Positions 12,894 to 43,262 of a DNA stretch of 58,496 bases are shown piece by piece. Position numbers and translations under genes: made by a program. Each line of letters opens with the position of its first letter. Position 1 is the stretch's first letter. Origin of the DNA: Acidobacteriota bacterium (GTDB taxonomy: Bacteria; Acidobacteriota; Polarisedimenticolia; J045); assembly GCA_030949985.1 (NCBI GenBank), contig JAUZRX010000033.1, forward strand, positions 1 to 58,496, in the 5' to 3' direction. Below the pieces are notes generated by a model that saw nothing but the letters and a program-made list of their open reading frames with translations, did not search any database and was not told the origin of the DNA.

Positions 12894-12922
12894 ATGGTAA
12901 CAATGGCCCCCCGGAGCGTCAA
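12894..12922 (-). promoter_or_regulatory. Candidate sigma-70 promoter of atpHAGDC
   Basis: On the minus strand TTGACG (12922-12917) is followed after 17 bp by TACCAT (12899-12894). This is the best -35/-10 pair in the gap upstream of atpH and would give a leader of about 155-160 nt. Confidence 0.45.
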
Positions 12923-12946: not shown

Positions 12947-13399
12947 TTAACTCTCCATGATCGAATCGGCGGGACTCCGGCGCCGCTCTCCGGCGGCTGC
13001 GCGGGGCCGGTAGCCGTGAAACACGAGGAGCAGGCAGAACCCTGCGCCCGACAGGCCGTGTATCCAGGAAAGAACCGGGCGCAGGGCGTCGTCGGTGACG
13101 ACCTGGCGCAAGTAGGCCGATCCCGCCATCACGACCACCAGGCCCAGCAGCCACCAGCCTCCGCGACGCGGGCCGGAGCGCCGGGAGGCGGGGCGATGCG
13201 CTCCCCAGGCCCAGCCCAGGGCGAAAAGCAGCGCCGGTGCGGCCAGAACGTGCAGATCCAGCATCCACGGCTGCCAGGGATGCCCGAACGCCGTGAAGGG
13301 ATCCGGCGGTTCGAGCAGGTAGCGCATCCAGGCGTAGACCAGGCCCGTGACCAGGGCCACCAGGGTTAGGCCGACCAGGGCTGGCCAGGGCCGGCTCAC
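12947..13399 (-). CDS. Small membrane protein, possible b-type haem carrier
   Basis: A 150-residue protein with four predicted membrane helices. The last helix contains a His-x13-His pair (WIHGLSG...LLVFHGY), and another His lies at the start of the second helix (WMLDLHVLAAP), a pattern seen in membrane b-type cytochromes. GTG at 13399 overlaps the stop of the FMN-binding protein gene (GTGA, 13396-13399), so the two are coupled. In context it is likely the membrane partner that passes electrons to the periplasmic flavoprotein. Haem binding is inference. Confidence 0.65.
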   Translation of the reverse strand: MSRPWPALVGLTLVALVTGLVYAWMRYLLEPPDPFTAFGHPWQPWMLDLHVLAAPALLFALGWAWGAHRPASRRSGPRRGGWWLLGLVVVMAGSAYLRQVVTDDALRPVLSWIHGLSGAGFCLLLVFHGYRPRAAAGERRRSPADSIMES

Positions 13400-13959
13400 G
13401 GCCGCTCCCCAAGCTGAAGCGCGGGCGGCAGGATCTGGTGAACCGCCAGGACGCGGCGTACGGCGTCCGTGGCGGCGTGGGACGAGAGGGTCGCGCCCGC
13501 CAGGACCCGGATGCCCCGTCGCACCTGCAATTCTCCATCCAGACCCCGGCCCTCGAACTGACCGTACCAGGTCGCCCTCGGTCGATACTCCGGCGGCTCC
13601 TTGAAGGCGAGCACTTCCACCCGTCGCACCTTCCCGCCGTCATCCACGACGATCAGCAGGGTCTCGGCCAGCGAGCGAACCAGGTGGGTGTCGACGTAGG
13701 CCACGGCCAGCAGCCGCCCGGCCCCGGAATACAGCCGGTAACGAGTCACCAGCCGGGTCGGCAGGGGCGAACCCGCCACCCGTTGGACCCGCCGTGCCTG
13801 CTGCCCGGACAACACCAGGGTGTCCTTCTGCCGGACCACGGCCTGCGGCACAGCGCGGTCGAGAGCGGCGTCGACAGGAGCCCCCTCCCCCGCCCGCGCC
13901 CCGGGGGGAGGTGCCAGCAGGGCCAGCAGAAGGCTAGAAAGAGAAGCCCAACGCCACAT
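13396..13959 (-). CDS. Periplasmic FMN-binding protein
   Basis: A 187-residue protein with a signal peptide (residues 3-22, ending GARAG) and a C-terminal FMN-binding domain. The motif AGATLSSHAA (about residue 160) resembles the S/A-G-A-T-x-S/T site at which FMN is attached to Thr through a phosphoester bond. The enzyme for that attachment, ApbE, is encoded two genes upstream. The ATG at 13959 lies 26 bp inside the end of the porin gene; longer versions read only antisense-like sequence. It probably carries single electrons in the periplasm. Confidence 0.8.
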   Translation of the reverse strand: MWRWASLSSLLLALLAPPPGARAGEGAPVDAALDRAVPQAVVRQKDTLVLSGQQARRVQRVAGSPLPTRLVTRYRLYSGAGRLLAVAYVDTHLVRSLAETLLIVVDDGGKVRRVEVLAFKEPPEYRPRATWYGQFEGRGLDGELQVRRGIRVLAGATLSSHAATDAVRRVLAVHQILPPALQLGERP

Positions 13960-15271
13960 GGATCTGATCCACCGCGTCGGCGGTGTCGTTGCTGGAGTCC
14001 TGGTAGTCGAGCTTGAGGGCCACCGAAGGGTGGGGCTTGTAGACCACGCCCCAGGTCCAACTGCTTCTATCCGCTCCGGTGGGGGCGGGCGGGGGACTGC
14101 CGCCGACCCGTTCGAGCGTGTCGAAGCTCTCGTACTTGGCAAAGACGATCATTTGGGAACGTCTCGCGCCGGAGGCGGCGAGCAGGTCCCAGCCGGCCTG
14201 CAGGTAGTAGCCGCCCATGCGGGCCCCCACCGGCTCCCCCACCAGGAGGGAAATCCGCTCCGCATCCTCCATCTCGACCCGCGCCCAGACCCCCCTCAGC
14301 TCCAGCCCGCGCCAGGTGTAGAGGGCGTGGAAATCCACGGTGGTCACTCTTCCGTCGAAAGTCTGGCCGGCCACCTGCCGCCCCTGGGCCGTATCGCCGG
14401 AGAAGAACGAGACGCCGGCGAGCAGGCCGGCCTTCCCGCGGTAGTCCAGCCGGCCGGTCAGGGCCCAGTCCTCCGCCCGGGCTTTCGAGCCCTTCTGCCG
14501 GCCTCCGCGAATCCCGCTCATGGAGGAGAAACCCGCCGCGTCGAGGCTGCTGACCAGGTAGACCCGGTATTCCCAGGCCCCCAGGTCACCCCAGACCCCC
14601 ACCCCGGTCTCCGACCAGGTTGTGGGCAGGATGACGGTCTCGAGATCCGGCCGGCGGGCCGACAAGAAGACGGGAGGCTCGTGCAGCTCGTTGGTCAAGC
14701 CCACGGGCACGAGCATCATGCCGGCTCGAACGCCGAACCGTGGCGCGAGGAGGAAATCGAGATAGGCGAATTCCACCGACGCGCTCCCCGACTTGGCGGT
14801 GCTGGCGTGCTCCCACTCCAGCTCGGCGTTGAAGAGGATGCGGTCGCTGAATTTGTAACCGGTGTAGAGCACCAGGCGCAGGAAGTCCGTGGTGTCCGTG
14901 CGCCCGGCGGGCCCGCCCGCGTCGGTACGGGCGGCGTAGTTCTGGTAGAGCCACTCCCCGTATCCCCCCAGGGCGAATCCCGTGTCGGTGCGGTAGATCC
15001 GTTCCGCGGAAGGCGCCAGGCCCGTATCGGGATGCTCCAGGTTTTGTTCTCGGCCGCCGGCCCCGTGGCGCAGGTCGGCCAATACTTCGGCCAGCACCTC
15101 CACCATGGCCTCCAGTTCTTCGATGCGGTCTTCGCGCCGATCTTCATCGGGTTCGGCGGCGGCCCGGCTCGCCGGAGGAACCAGGGCCATCGTCAGCGCC
15201 AGGACCAGGGGAATGGCGCGGGTGGGACGGACAACCCTGCCGATTCCCGAGGTCTTCGGATTTCGCGTCAT
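13934..15271 (-). CDS. Outer-membrane porin-like beta-barrel protein
   Basis: A 445-residue protein with a signal peptide (residues 15-37), a short coiled-coil segment rich in Glu/Arg/Leu (EDRREDRIEELEAMVEVLAE), then a barrel of alternating aromatic/polar strands that ends in the terminal Phe typical of outer-membrane proteins (HVALGFSF). This resembles OprO/OprP or DcaP-type trimeric porins. ATG 15271 overlaps the apbE stop (ATGA) and has GAGGAG upstream. In a flavin/electron-transfer operon it could admit a substrate or metal chelate; the specificity cannot be read. Confidence 0.75.
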   Translation of the reverse strand: MTRNPKTSGIGRVVRPTRAIPLVLALTMALVPPASRAAAEPDEDRREDRIEELEAMVEVLAEVLADLRHGAGGREQNLEHPDTGLAPSAERIYRTDTGFALGGYGEWLYQNYAARTDAGGPAGRTDTTDFLRLVLYTGYKFSDRILFNAELEWEHASTAKSGSASVEFAYLDFLLAPRFGVRAGMMLVPVGLTNELHEPPVFLSARRPDLETVILPTTWSETGVGVWGDLGAWEYRVYLVSSLDAAGFSSMSGIRGGRQKGSKARAEDWALTGRLDYRGKAGLLAGVSFFSGDTAQGRQVAGQTFDGRVTTVDFHALYTWRGLELRGVWARVEMEDAERISLLVGEPVGARMGGYYLQAGWDLLAASGARRSQMIVFAKYESFDTLERVGGSPPPAPTGADRSSWTWGVVYKPHPSVALKLDYQDSSNDTADAVDQIHVALGFSF

Positions 15272-16278
15272 TGCCGGAAACTCCTCGATGCCGCCTGCCC
15301 GGCGGCGGGGTTGGGGGTGAGCCACAGGACCCGTGTGCCGGGCGGAAGAAAGCCCGGTGCTCTTGGATCCCGATAACCGAACAGGGCTGTGGACAGCGCG
15401 TCGGCATCGGTGGCGGAGGGGGTGATCACGCTCACCGCGCCGGTGGCGGGAAGCGGTCGGCCGCTGAGCGGGTCGATGATCTCGGCGTGACGGGCCGATC
15501 CCACGGTCAGGTAGCGTTCGGACGCGCCCGAGGTGGCGACGCTCCCGCGTTCGACGAACACCGTCGCCATCACCCGGTCGCGCCGGCGAGGATCGGCGAG
15601 GGCCACCACCCATCCCCGCTCCCCGGGGGGCGGGCCCGTGGCCAAGACCTGGCCGCCGAAATTGAACAGGGCGCCGTCGAGGCCCCGGGCGGCGAGCACT
15701 CTGGCGGCCTCGTCGAGAGCGAATCCCTTGCCGATACCCCCCAGGTCGAATTGCAGGCCGGTGCGCAGGGTACGAAGCCGTCCCCGTCCGGGGTCCACGG
15801 TGTAATGCCGCCACCCCGTCCGGGCGGCGGCGGCCGCCAATTCACCGGCGGTCGGCTCACGACCTCCCTCCCCCAGGCCCCAAGCCCGGGAGAGGACGCC
15901 AACCGTGGGGTCGAAGCGGCCGCCACTGCGCTCGGCCCATCGGCGTGCGACTGCAAGAGCCCGTGCCAGGTCGGAAGAGACGGGGTAAACCGCGGCCCGC
16001 GAGGCCCCGGCGAGACGGGCGTTGAGGGCCGCGAGTTCCCCGTCGGCCGACCAGGTGGTCAGCACTCTTTCCAGCTGGGCGATGCGGTCGAGCGCCCGAT
16101 CGAGAGCCGGAGCCACCTTCCCCGGAGGTCCCCAGGCGCGCACCTCACAATACGTGCCCATCAGGTAACGGGCTCTGACCGTCCAGGATGAAGCGGGGGG
16201 GCTCCCCGCAGACGGAGAAGGTACGGCGCAAAATACTAAGGCAACGCAGGTTATAACTATAATGCGAACTATTCGCAT
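15268..16278 (-). CDS. apbE: FAD:protein FMN transferase
   Basis: A 336-residue ApbE-family enzyme that transfers FMN from FAD to a Thr of exported flavoproteins. Family segments are present: MGTYCEVRAWG, GGRFDPTVGVLSRAWGLG, FDLGGIGKGFALDEAARVL and the C-terminal TPSATDADALSTALFG. A signal peptide (residues 6-26) places it in the periplasm, matching the FMN-binding protein two genes downstream. ATG 16278 is chosen; TTG 16290 is possible. The first 25 codons are unusually AT-rich and the start codon lies inside a 19-bp palindrome (16261-16279). Confidence 0.9.
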   Translation of the reverse strand: MRIVRIIVITCVALVFCAVPSPSAGSPPASSWTVRARYLMGTYCEVRAWGPPGKVAPALDRALDRIAQLERVLTTWSADGELAALNARLAGASRAAVYPVSSDLARALAVARRWAERSGGRFDPTVGVLSRAWGLGEGGREPTAGELAAAAARTGWRHYTVDPGRGRLRTLRTGLQFDLGGIGKGFALDEAARVLAARGLDGALFNFGGQVLATGPPPGERGWVVALADPRRRDRVMATVFVERGSVATSGASERYLTVGSARHAEIIDPLSGRPLPATGAVSVITPSATDADALSTALFGYRDPRAPGFLPPGTRVLWLTPNPAAGQAASRSFRQ

Positions 16279-16279
16279 T
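16261..16279. promoter_or_regulatory. Fur-like palindrome over the apbE start codon
   Basis: The minus strand reads AATGCGAATAGTTCGCATT, a perfect 8-bp inverted repeat with a 3-nt centre. Its length and layout resemble the 19-bp Fur box (7-1-7 form TGCGAAT-A-GTTCGCA with one mismatch). It covers the apbE ATG. Repression by a Fur-family regulator is the natural reading, but no regulator gene is in the window. Confidence 0.45.
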
Positions 16280-16356
16280 GCAGGCCCCAAAAAAAGGAAC
16301 GCAGCTTCCGCGCTCGCCCATGTCGCCTTACTTGCGATCGATTCTCAACACAGCAG

Positions 16357-16385
16357 ACGGTACCCCCCCCGCTCGCCCCTGTCAA
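16357..16385 (-). promoter_or_regulatory. Candidate promoter of the apbE operon
   Basis: A perfect TTGACA (16385-16380) is followed after 17 bp by TACCGT (16362-16357), a weak -10. Transcription would start about 70 nt upstream of the apbE ATG, so the Fur-like palindrome would lie at the end of the leader rather than over the promoter. Confidence 0.35.
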
Positions 16386-16445: not shown

Positions 16446-17351
16446 ATGAACACCACCGCGCGACAGCTCGAATCCCTCGAGAGGAAACTGGCCGCCTTCG
16501 ATCGACGTGGGCTCTTCTTCGTGCTGGGCACGATGAAGTCGGGCACCACCTGGCTGCAGTTGCTGCTCGACGCCCATCCCGCCATCTGCTGCCGGGGCGA
16601 GGGGCACTTCACCAGCTACCTCGCGCCACGCCTCCAGCAGGCTCTCGGTGAATACAACCAGATCATCGCCGGCAAGAACCAGGACATCTTCACCGACCTG
16701 CCCGACTTCCCTCTGCTGAAAAAGGAACACCTGCTGCACCTGTTGCGCACCACCGTGGCCCTGCTGCTGGCTGAACTGCCCGCCGACGAAGAGGTGACGC
16801 TCGTGGGCGAGAAGTGCCCCAACAACATTCGTGGGCTCGACATTCTCGCCGCGCTCTTTCCCCGCGCCCGCTTCGTCCACGTAGTGCGCGACCTGCGGGA
16901 CGTGGCAGTTTCGGCCTGGTTCCACAACCAACGCGTCAGCCCCCAGTGGACCCGGGAGAACTTCGAAGACCTCGACCAGTACGCCCTGGCCAACCTGCCC
17001 GAGTGGACGGCGGAACTTCGCCTGGCCCGGCGCTTTGCCGCCACCCACCCCGAAAAGGTCGTCACCGTGCGTTACGAGGACCTGCTCGCGGAACCGGCGC
17101 GGAACCTGGCCCGGACGCTCGACTTCCTCGGCGTCGACAGCGACGGCCGGATCATCGACCGCTGCCTGAAGGCGGCGTCCTTCGAGACCCTGACCGGCGG
17201 CCGGCGACCGGGGGAGGAGGACCGGCGCTCTCACTTCCGCAAGGGCCTGGCCGGCGAGGGGCGGCAAGCTCTCCAGCCGGAAACCCTCGAGCAATTCGAG
17301 GTGGCCGCCGGCCCGGAGCTACGCGCTTTCGGCTACGAACCGGACCGCTAG
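16446..17351 (+). CDS. Sulfotransferase family protein
   Basis: A 301-residue PAPS-dependent sulfotransferase. The 5'-phosphosulfate loop GTMKSGTTWLQLL (residues 28-40), the 3'-phosphate-binding RDLRDVAVSAWFH (about 148-160) and the C-terminal FRKGLAGEGR (about 266-275) are the three expected PAPS contacts. It should transfer sulfate to a hydroxyl or amine of a small molecule, lipid or glycan; the acceptor is unknown. It is cytosolic (no signal peptide). Its TAG stop shares the CTAG at 17348-17351 with the stop of the convergent peptidase gene. Confidence 0.85.
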   Translation: MNTTARQLESLERKLAAFDRRGLFFVLGTMKSGTTWLQLLLDAHPAICCRGEGHFTSYLAPRLQQALGEYNQIIAGKNQDIFTDLPDFPLLKKEHLLHLLRTTVALLLAELPADEEVTLVGEKCPNNIRGLDILAALFPRARFVHVVRDLRDVAVSAWFHNQRVSPQWTRENFEDLDQYALANLPEWTAELRLARRFAATHPEKVVTVRYEDLLAEPARNLARTLDFLGVDSDGRIIDRCLKAASFETLTGGRRPGEEDRRSHFRKGLAGEGRQALQPETLEQFEVAAGPELRAFGYEPDR

Positions 17352-42820: not shown

Positions 42821-42836
42821 TGTTCCACGTGGAACA
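42821..42836. promoter_or_regulatory. parS site 1
   Basis: TGTTCCACGTGGAACA is a perfect 16-bp palindrome. It matches the parS consensus TGTTTCACGTGAAACA except for C/G at the fifth position of each arm. It lies between parA and mnmG. Confidence 0.85.
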
Positions 42837-43164: not shown

Positions 43165-43204
43165 ATCTGCCCACGCCGCACCGAAGGCTCGCCGCCCCGA
43201 CCGA

Positions 43205-43220
43205 TGTTCCACGTGGAACA
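43205..43220. promoter_or_regulatory. parS site 3
   Basis: TGTTCCACGTGGAACA again, and the palindrome extends to 24 bp (43201-43224 region, CGA and TCG flanks). It lies 56 bp from site 2 and 42 bp upstream of the mnmG ATG. Confidence 0.85.
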
Positions 43221-43262
43221 TCGGCCCGCTCACCGGGGCGGACAACCCTCTCAGCAGGTACC

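Follow-up and report, generated by a model that had tools for sequence, protein, structure and literature searches.

We analysed a 58,496-nucleotide stretch of DNA from an Acidobacteriota bacterium (GTDB lineage Acidobacteriota; Polarisedimenticolia; J045; assembly GCA_030949985.1, contig JAUZRX010000033.1, forward strand), hereafter called the window, which carries on its minus strand four genes in a row for the flavin transferase ApbE, a porin, a flavin mononucleotide (FMN)-binding protein and a small membrane protein. We propose, with a probability of about 0.7, that this operon encodes a Fur-repressed, TonB-independent periplasmic ferric reductase that would feed the ferrous iron importer FeoB, with electrons passing from a haem-b membrane protein to an ApbE-flavinylated protein. 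An earlier reading of the window, made from its sequence alone (the sequence-only reading), had guessed at an iron system, and this guess gains support from Fur-type boxes at the operon, from a box that the operon has in common with feoAB and from the linkage of related operons to feo and fur genes. As judged by sequence, the operon has what is expected of a member of a Fur regulon, a conserved 7-1-7 operator at the promoter and an operator of the same type at the feoA of its own genome, and Fur-type iron control is supported.

In the mechanism that we infer, low iron would release the Fur repressor from a pair of operators at the promoter of apbE and from a single operator at that of feoAB. 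ApbE would then attach FMN to the threonine of a GAT motif in the periplasmic FMN-binding protein, and the four-helix membrane protein, with a pair of b haems bound between helices 2 and 4, would transfer electrons from the quinone pool, with quinol as the donor, to the flavoprotein. Fe(III) complexes would enter through the co-encoded porin and would be reduced in the periplasm by the flavoprotein, and FeoB would take in the resulting Fe(II). The same direction of electron flow, from the membrane protein to the flavinylated protein, had been put forward in the sequence-only reading, and it is consistent with the protein families involved and with the invariant histidines of the membrane protein. 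The genes of the operon are the following.

15268-16278, minus strand: apbE, flavin adenine dinucleotide (FAD):protein FMN transferase of 336 amino acids with a signal peptide (PF02424, PDB 4xdt)
13934-15271, minus strand: outer-membrane porin of 445 amino acids with an N-terminal coiled coil and a general-porin fold
13396-13959, minus strand: periplasmic FMN-binding protein of 187 amino acids, flavinylation motif GAT at residues 155-157 (PF04205, RnfG match)
12947-13399, minus strand: four-helix membrane protein of 150 amino acids, GTG start, five invariant histidines, proposed di-haem b cytochrome

From these coordinates, apbE and the porin gene overlap by 4 base pairs (bp), the porin and FMN genes by 26 bp and the FMN and membrane genes by 4 bp, exactly as had been read before.

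Promoter and predicted Fur-type operators of the operon

Upstream of the four genes, and partly within the first of them, lie the following elements.

16380-16385, minus strand: TTGACA, serving as the −35 element, found too in the same-genus genome and in many relatives of the class
16357-16362, minus strand: −10-like element TACCGT, found likewise in the same-genus genome; the feoA promoter has TACCAT
16333-16347, minus strand: predicted Fur-type operator TGAGAATCGATCGCA, conserved, located directly past the −10 element and identified by a Fur-box scorer and by its ortholog TGAGAACGACTCGCA
16261-16279, minus strand: 19-bp palindrome AATGCGAATAGTTCGCATT over the apbE ATG, probable second Fur-type operator with the core TGCGAATAGTTCGCA

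Comparison of the upstream regions revealed a conserved arrangement, TTGACA-N17-TAnnnT followed immediately by a Fur-type 7-1-7 box, and the spacer between the −35 and −10 elements is 17 bp in the window as well as in relatives. Neither this promoter nor the upstream box had been noticed in the sequence-only reading. In the same-genus genome TGAGAACGACTCGCA occupies the position equivalent to that of TGAGAATCGATCGCA. The box at 16333-16347 and the palindrome are the only sites of the 58.5-kb window that reach 11.5 or more in the Fur-box scorer, whose weights, to the detriment of the proposal, were fixed after the Acidobacteriota loci had been inspected. No match to the E. coli Fur consensus was found in the window with three mismatches allowed, and an Rfam search of the window gave none either. 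The operon promoter was missed by a promoter scan of the window, because its −10-like element TACCGT agrees with TATAAT at too few positions.

The 19-bp palindrome that the sequence-only reading had described as Fur-like is present at the apbE start codon (ATG at 16278-16276), 70 bp downstream of the TGAGAATCGATCGCA box; it consists of two exact 8-bp arms around a 3-nucleotide centre (8-3-8), and by the scorer it is a Fur-type 7-1-7 box. Since the window contains 16 exact 8-bp inverted repeats with a loop of up to 5 nucleotides, its symmetry by itself proves little. We consider that the palindrome is probably a second operator, the box at 16333-16347 being the better conserved of the two. A possible, though clearly less probable, explanation for this one element, compatible with the ferric-reductase proposal as a whole, is that it is no operator and represents either a translational hairpin in the mRNA or a chance product of the codons for MRIVRI. 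The exact arms would indeed pair over the start codon, and the same-genus genome retains an intact upstream box but a degraded palindrome. However, the core of the palindrome (TGCGAACTATTCGCA on the plus strand) is letter-identical to the box that precedes the porin gene in a related locus (L053), another genome of the same family (G004) likewise has two boxes, and the leader folds no better than its shuffled versions (z −1.21), on which ground RNA hairpin control of the apbE start was rejected.

The sequence-only reading had proposed to look for the same palindrome before iron genes. Genome-wide, with up to three mismatches, no further copy of the 19-mer was found except for one poorer site, and none lies near iron genes; the class of box to which it belongs does occur there, as TGAGACGGGTTCGCA at the feoA promoter of the same genome. 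At that promoter (C26:66343-66357) the elements TTGACA and TACCAT are followed by TTGAGACGGGTTCGCAA and then by feoA and feoB. In this genome and in four others of the family (G001, G007, G008 and G011), feoA is preceded at a distance of 50-59 bp by a box of the same type, and within the class a box is found at 10 of 27 feo loci, where about 1.8 would be expected from the background rate in the same sequences. The class box TGAGAHTGAGTCGCA is present in 12 of 60 genomes, each time at the operon; one additional site lies where a contig ends. In a set of 103 operons that includes a few near-duplicate loci, 56 have an upstream 7-1-7 Fur-type box at p ≤ 0.01 against shuffled sequences, about one being expected, and perfect Fur boxes extend beyond Acidobacteriota, to a locus of Deltaproteobacteria/Myxococcota (L154) and to one of Bdellovibrionales (L166).

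Conservation of the gene set and linkage to iron genes

Among 60 relatives, 34 proved to have the FMN-binding protein. In nearly all the loci read the porin and membrane genes stand beside the FMN gene, and apbE does so in most of them, the order being either apbE-porin-FMN-membrane or porin-FMN-membrane-apbE. In 31 of 32 loci the FMN gene overlaps the membrane gene by exactly 4 bp, and in six the porin and FMN genes again overlap by 26 bp. The membrane protein is confined to the module, all its strong matches among 41 genomes of the class being placed at the FMN locus. When GTDB genomes were scanned with an alignment of the porin, at least 80 loci in about a dozen phyla were obtained. Among the matches listed are loci of Acidobacteriota, Gemmatimonadota, KSB1, Planctomycetota, Calditrichota, Bacteroidota, Bdellovibrionota-like bacteria, Myxococcales, Deltaproteobacteria, Methylococcales, Rokuibacteriota, Verrucomicrobia/Kiritimatiellia and Dadabacteria, and in them the FMN gene comes after the porin gene wherever the contig permits, with very few exceptions. 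The four-gene set, which the sequence-only reading had proposed to look for in other genomes, is thus present in most of the class and well outside it.

The four-helix protein was recognised in 51 of the 80 loci among the matches listed. Most of the remaining loci have, in the same slot, a different membrane protein of 165-200 amino acids, with the pattern EVTHFH...THL...GWLVRF and no Pfam match.

L133:7125-7904: member of the substitute membrane family after the FMN gene, fused to FeoA
L128, L131, L137, L139, L148, L149 and L154: further loci with the substitute family after the FMN gene
L169, L174, L178, L179, L181 and L183: further loci with the substitute family after the FMN gene

No homology between the two membrane families was detectable (hhalign probability 0.25%). 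The placement of unrelated proteins in one slot points to a common job, electron donation to the flavoprotein, and suggests that members of both families would give electrons to it.

In 11 of 33 loci the gene that immediately precedes the operon belongs to the Fur family. One type of these adjacent regulators carries the motif HEHLICLRCGEVxEF and has E. coli Fur as its best PDB match; the other type, from four loci, groups with support 100/99 with the second Fur of the genome of the window, encoded on contig C104, and because of this grouping the C104 Fur is the best candidate repressor of the operon. The importer gene feoB is found within 6 kb of the operon in 10 related loci, in several arrangements. 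Locus L110 reads fur-feoB-apbE-porin-FMN-membrane gene, an order repeated in L060. The membrane subunit of L133 has the FeoA domain at its C-terminus (E 8.8e-21), and its gene is followed by feoB. Downstream of the module, L137 has a DtxR-like gene, feoA and feoB, and in L158 the module is followed by feoA, a gene for a PepSY-like protein (our own reading) and feoB. A fusion to FeoA was also considered for L158 and was ruled out, the membrane gene and feoA being separate there. The PepSY-like protein between feoA and feoB (L158:9745-10984) places two putative reductase types in one iron cluster.

Predicted properties of the proteins

ApbE matches PF02424 with E 1.1e-61 (209.1 bits against a cut-off of 25.6) and PDB entry 4xdt with E 4.6e-37, and on inspection its N-terminus resembles a signal peptide. 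The same genome contains a second apbE (G000:C6:44394-45227; L001, L068), so that ApbE activity is not exclusive to the four-gene operon. The FMN-binding protein matches PF04205 with E 9.1e-6 (26.7 bits against the curated cut-off of 22) and resembles RnfG (9eri_G, E 2.2e-9); a PDB sequence search with this protein alone gave no match. In its GA[T/S] motif the first two residues are invariant, and the third is threonine in 25 of 31 members and serine in the other 6. These families and the motif would be those of an ApbE that attaches FMN covalently to the FMN-binding protein.

The membrane protein is modelled with four helices (predicted local distance difference test, pLDDT, 87.8). Five of its histidines are invariant: one in the first loop (H40), two on helix 2 at residues 43-68 (H50 and H68) and two on helix 4 at residues 106-130 (H114 and H128), the last four being conserved in 29 of 29 members. 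Two invariant histidines on each of two membrane helices are the anatomy of a di-haem b cytochrome, and on this arrangement the protein would bind two b haems. In the searches made with it, Pfam gave sub-threshold matches only for the protein of the window, its profile had no match in the PDB, and Foldseek had no significant match for the protein (best STEAP2, E 0.14).

The porin of the window has no Pfam match; Porin_O_P (PF07396) is matched by 12 of 31 members of its family, up to E 1.5e-5, and not by the porin of the window itself. Its model (pLDDT 85.0) resembles the general porins, kin of OmpM1 and OmpF, with Foldseek E down to 1.3e-13. The residues E150, E152, E154 and H155 on strand 3, together with E195, H197 and E198 in the long loop that joins strand 5 to strand 6, are invariant, and from strand alternation and porin anatomy these glutamates and histidines would line the constriction and suit a cation path. 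A bolder, rather doubtful extension is that the porin is a working part of the reductase. In this extension the glutamates and histidines of the constriction would catch Fe(III), and the flavoprotein, positioned at the periplasmic mouth, would reduce it there, giving a reductive route independent of TonB and of siderophores that at least two unrelated families of membrane cytochromes would serve.

Alternative explanations, known systems and neighbouring genes

Several further observations weigh against the ferric-reductase proposal. The genome-wide search for boxes was made with patterns only, not with the scorer, and the pattern TGMGAHNNNDTCKCA has four matches in the 3.7-Mb genome, of which two lie at the operon and the others at the promoters of feoAB and of a perR-like gene, while a control pattern also has four and the count of the loose pattern is at the chance level of about four per genome; the argument therefore depends on where the boxes are located. 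Many of the 103 upstream regions have no box, in part because fur sits between the box and the operon or because the true start is further up. With respect to the membrane protein, the match to cytochrome b561 (PF01292) reaches 19.6 bits, under the cut-off of 30.1, with weak matches in 11 of 29 members (best E 6.9e-7). In the fold comparison, cytochrome b6, the cytochrome b of hydrogenase-1 and superoxide oxidase were among the natural structures that ranked high (Z 10-11.7), and values of 10-12 are within the chance range for helical bundles; a better case for haem binding comes from the paired histidines. The genome also encodes seven TonB-receptor plug domains, so other iron routes are possible. 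Finally, in two families that retain the operon and the box (f6 and f10; genomes G016, G021, G024, G026, G028, G030, G032, G034, G036 and G038-G040, mostly with a single Fur-type box, at the operon) no FeoB was found, and in f6 no Nramp was found either. FeoB as an obligatory partner was accordingly ruled out, and if the ferric-reductase proposal holds, another ferrous importer must serve in those families.

The absence of FeoB from f6 and f10 speaks for an alternative that we regard as unlikely, namely that the flavoprotein has a substrate other than iron, such as an organic acceptor, a peroxide, a disulfide, manganese or copper, and that the iron control reflects the need for haem or a use under anoxic, iron-poor conditions. 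Fur boxes do occur on many genes that are not for uptake, and flavinylated proteins work in many reductases (PMC8238504). However, the module is directly linked to FeoA and FeoB, even by fusion, the operon and feoAB of the same genome have a box in common, and no conserved gene for a partner reductase adjoins the module.

The fourth genomic box bears on the identity of the regulator. It is a near-perfect TGAGATAAAGTCTCA at the promoter of the perR-like gene (G000:C1:52307-52321; L074, L070), which is followed by genes for cytochrome c peroxidase and rubrerythrin, and this group is a compact predicted peroxide regulon. Its box could be taken to mean that PerR, and not Fur, regulates the four-gene operon as part of a peroxide response. 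We hold this to be very improbable, given that the PerR box is symmetric whereas the boxes of the operon and of feoA have mixed halves, TGAGA..TCGCA or TGCGA..TCGCA, and that the regulators adjacent to the operon in relatives are of the Fur type or of the C104 type.

The slightest chance of all we give to extracellular electron transfer, with porin and flavoprotein as an outer-membrane conduit to solid Fe(III) that would serve respiration and not assimilation: although the porin and FMN genes are inseparable and the carriers include Geothrix and Geothermobacter, which are Fe(III) reducers, the Fur-type control and the feo linkage indicate assimilation, the OmpF-like lumen of the modelled porin would be too narrow for a flavin domain, and the module is also present in methanotrophs, Bdellovibrio relatives and Planctomycetota, which have no reason for iron respiration.

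The proposed ferric reductase would operate like systems already described. Flavinylation gene clusters are often placed beside iron transporters, with electron donors of the NapH-, MsrQ-, PepSY-, DsbD- and NQR/RNF-like types, and the PepSY clusters were reported as Fur-repressed (Meheust et al. 2021, PMC8238504). DUF4405 and FezC cytochromes have been added to these flavinylation-linked donors (Huang et al. 2024, PMC11334425). With the PepSY-like, MsrQ-like and P19-associated systems the operon has in common ApbE, an extracytosolic protein predicted to be flavinylated, a proposed membrane donor and iron transporters as neighbours, but its donor matches none of the NapH-, MsrQ-, PepSY-, DsbD- or NQR/RNF-like types and the porin is a fixed part of it. 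With DUF4405 and FezC it has in common a small membrane protein, here a proposed haem-b protein, with paired histidines and an apbE neighbour or iron link; DUF4405 (PF14358), however, is described as six-helix, whereas the protein of the window has four helices and the DUF4405 model is matched weakly by 3 of 29 members (best E 0.041). RnfG and NqrC likewise contain an FMN_bind domain with a GAT-type flavinylation motif, but the FMN protein of the window is predicted to be soluble in the periplasm and to work with a small cytochrome, and no Rnf or Nqr genes adjoin it. As for OmpF/OmpC and OmpM1, the predicted barrel fold is the common trait; the porin of the window differs from general porins in being the fixed partner of a flavoprotein, with invariant glutamates and histidines on strand 3 and in the loop before strand 6.

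No porin appears in the main texts of PMC8238504 and PMC11334425, and among open-access main texts we found no literature on a module of porin, FMN-binding protein, FeoB and ApbE. Iron reduction linked to flavinylation is already known, and the version with a porin and a small cytochrome is new; given an operation like that of the known systems and a membrane protein that fails the Pfam tests for the named donors, it would be a new version of a known type. The operon offers a candidate route from environmental Fe(III) to Fe(II) that FeoB can import in many Gram-negative bacteria that have been little studied, Acidobacteriota, Gemmatimonadota, KSB1, methanotrophs and others among them. It would bring small membrane cytochromes, so far without a name, together with a porin and a flavinylated protein in a single iron-controlled unit, in which two unrelated membrane proteins can fill the same slot.

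Upstream, the operon is flanked by a divergent sulfotransferase-like gene on the plus strand, starting at 16446 according to the reading of open reading frames, and downstream by the ATP synthase operon, with atpH running down from about 12791. In the interval that separates atpH from the membrane gene, at 12894-12922 on the minus strand, there is a promoter-like TTGACG-N17-TACCAT with TG ahead of the −10 element, so that the ATP synthase operon probably has a promoter to itself. Elsewhere in the window, two parS-like palindromes TGTTCCACGTGGAACA (42821-42836 and 43202-43223) suggest that the contig lies near the replication origin.

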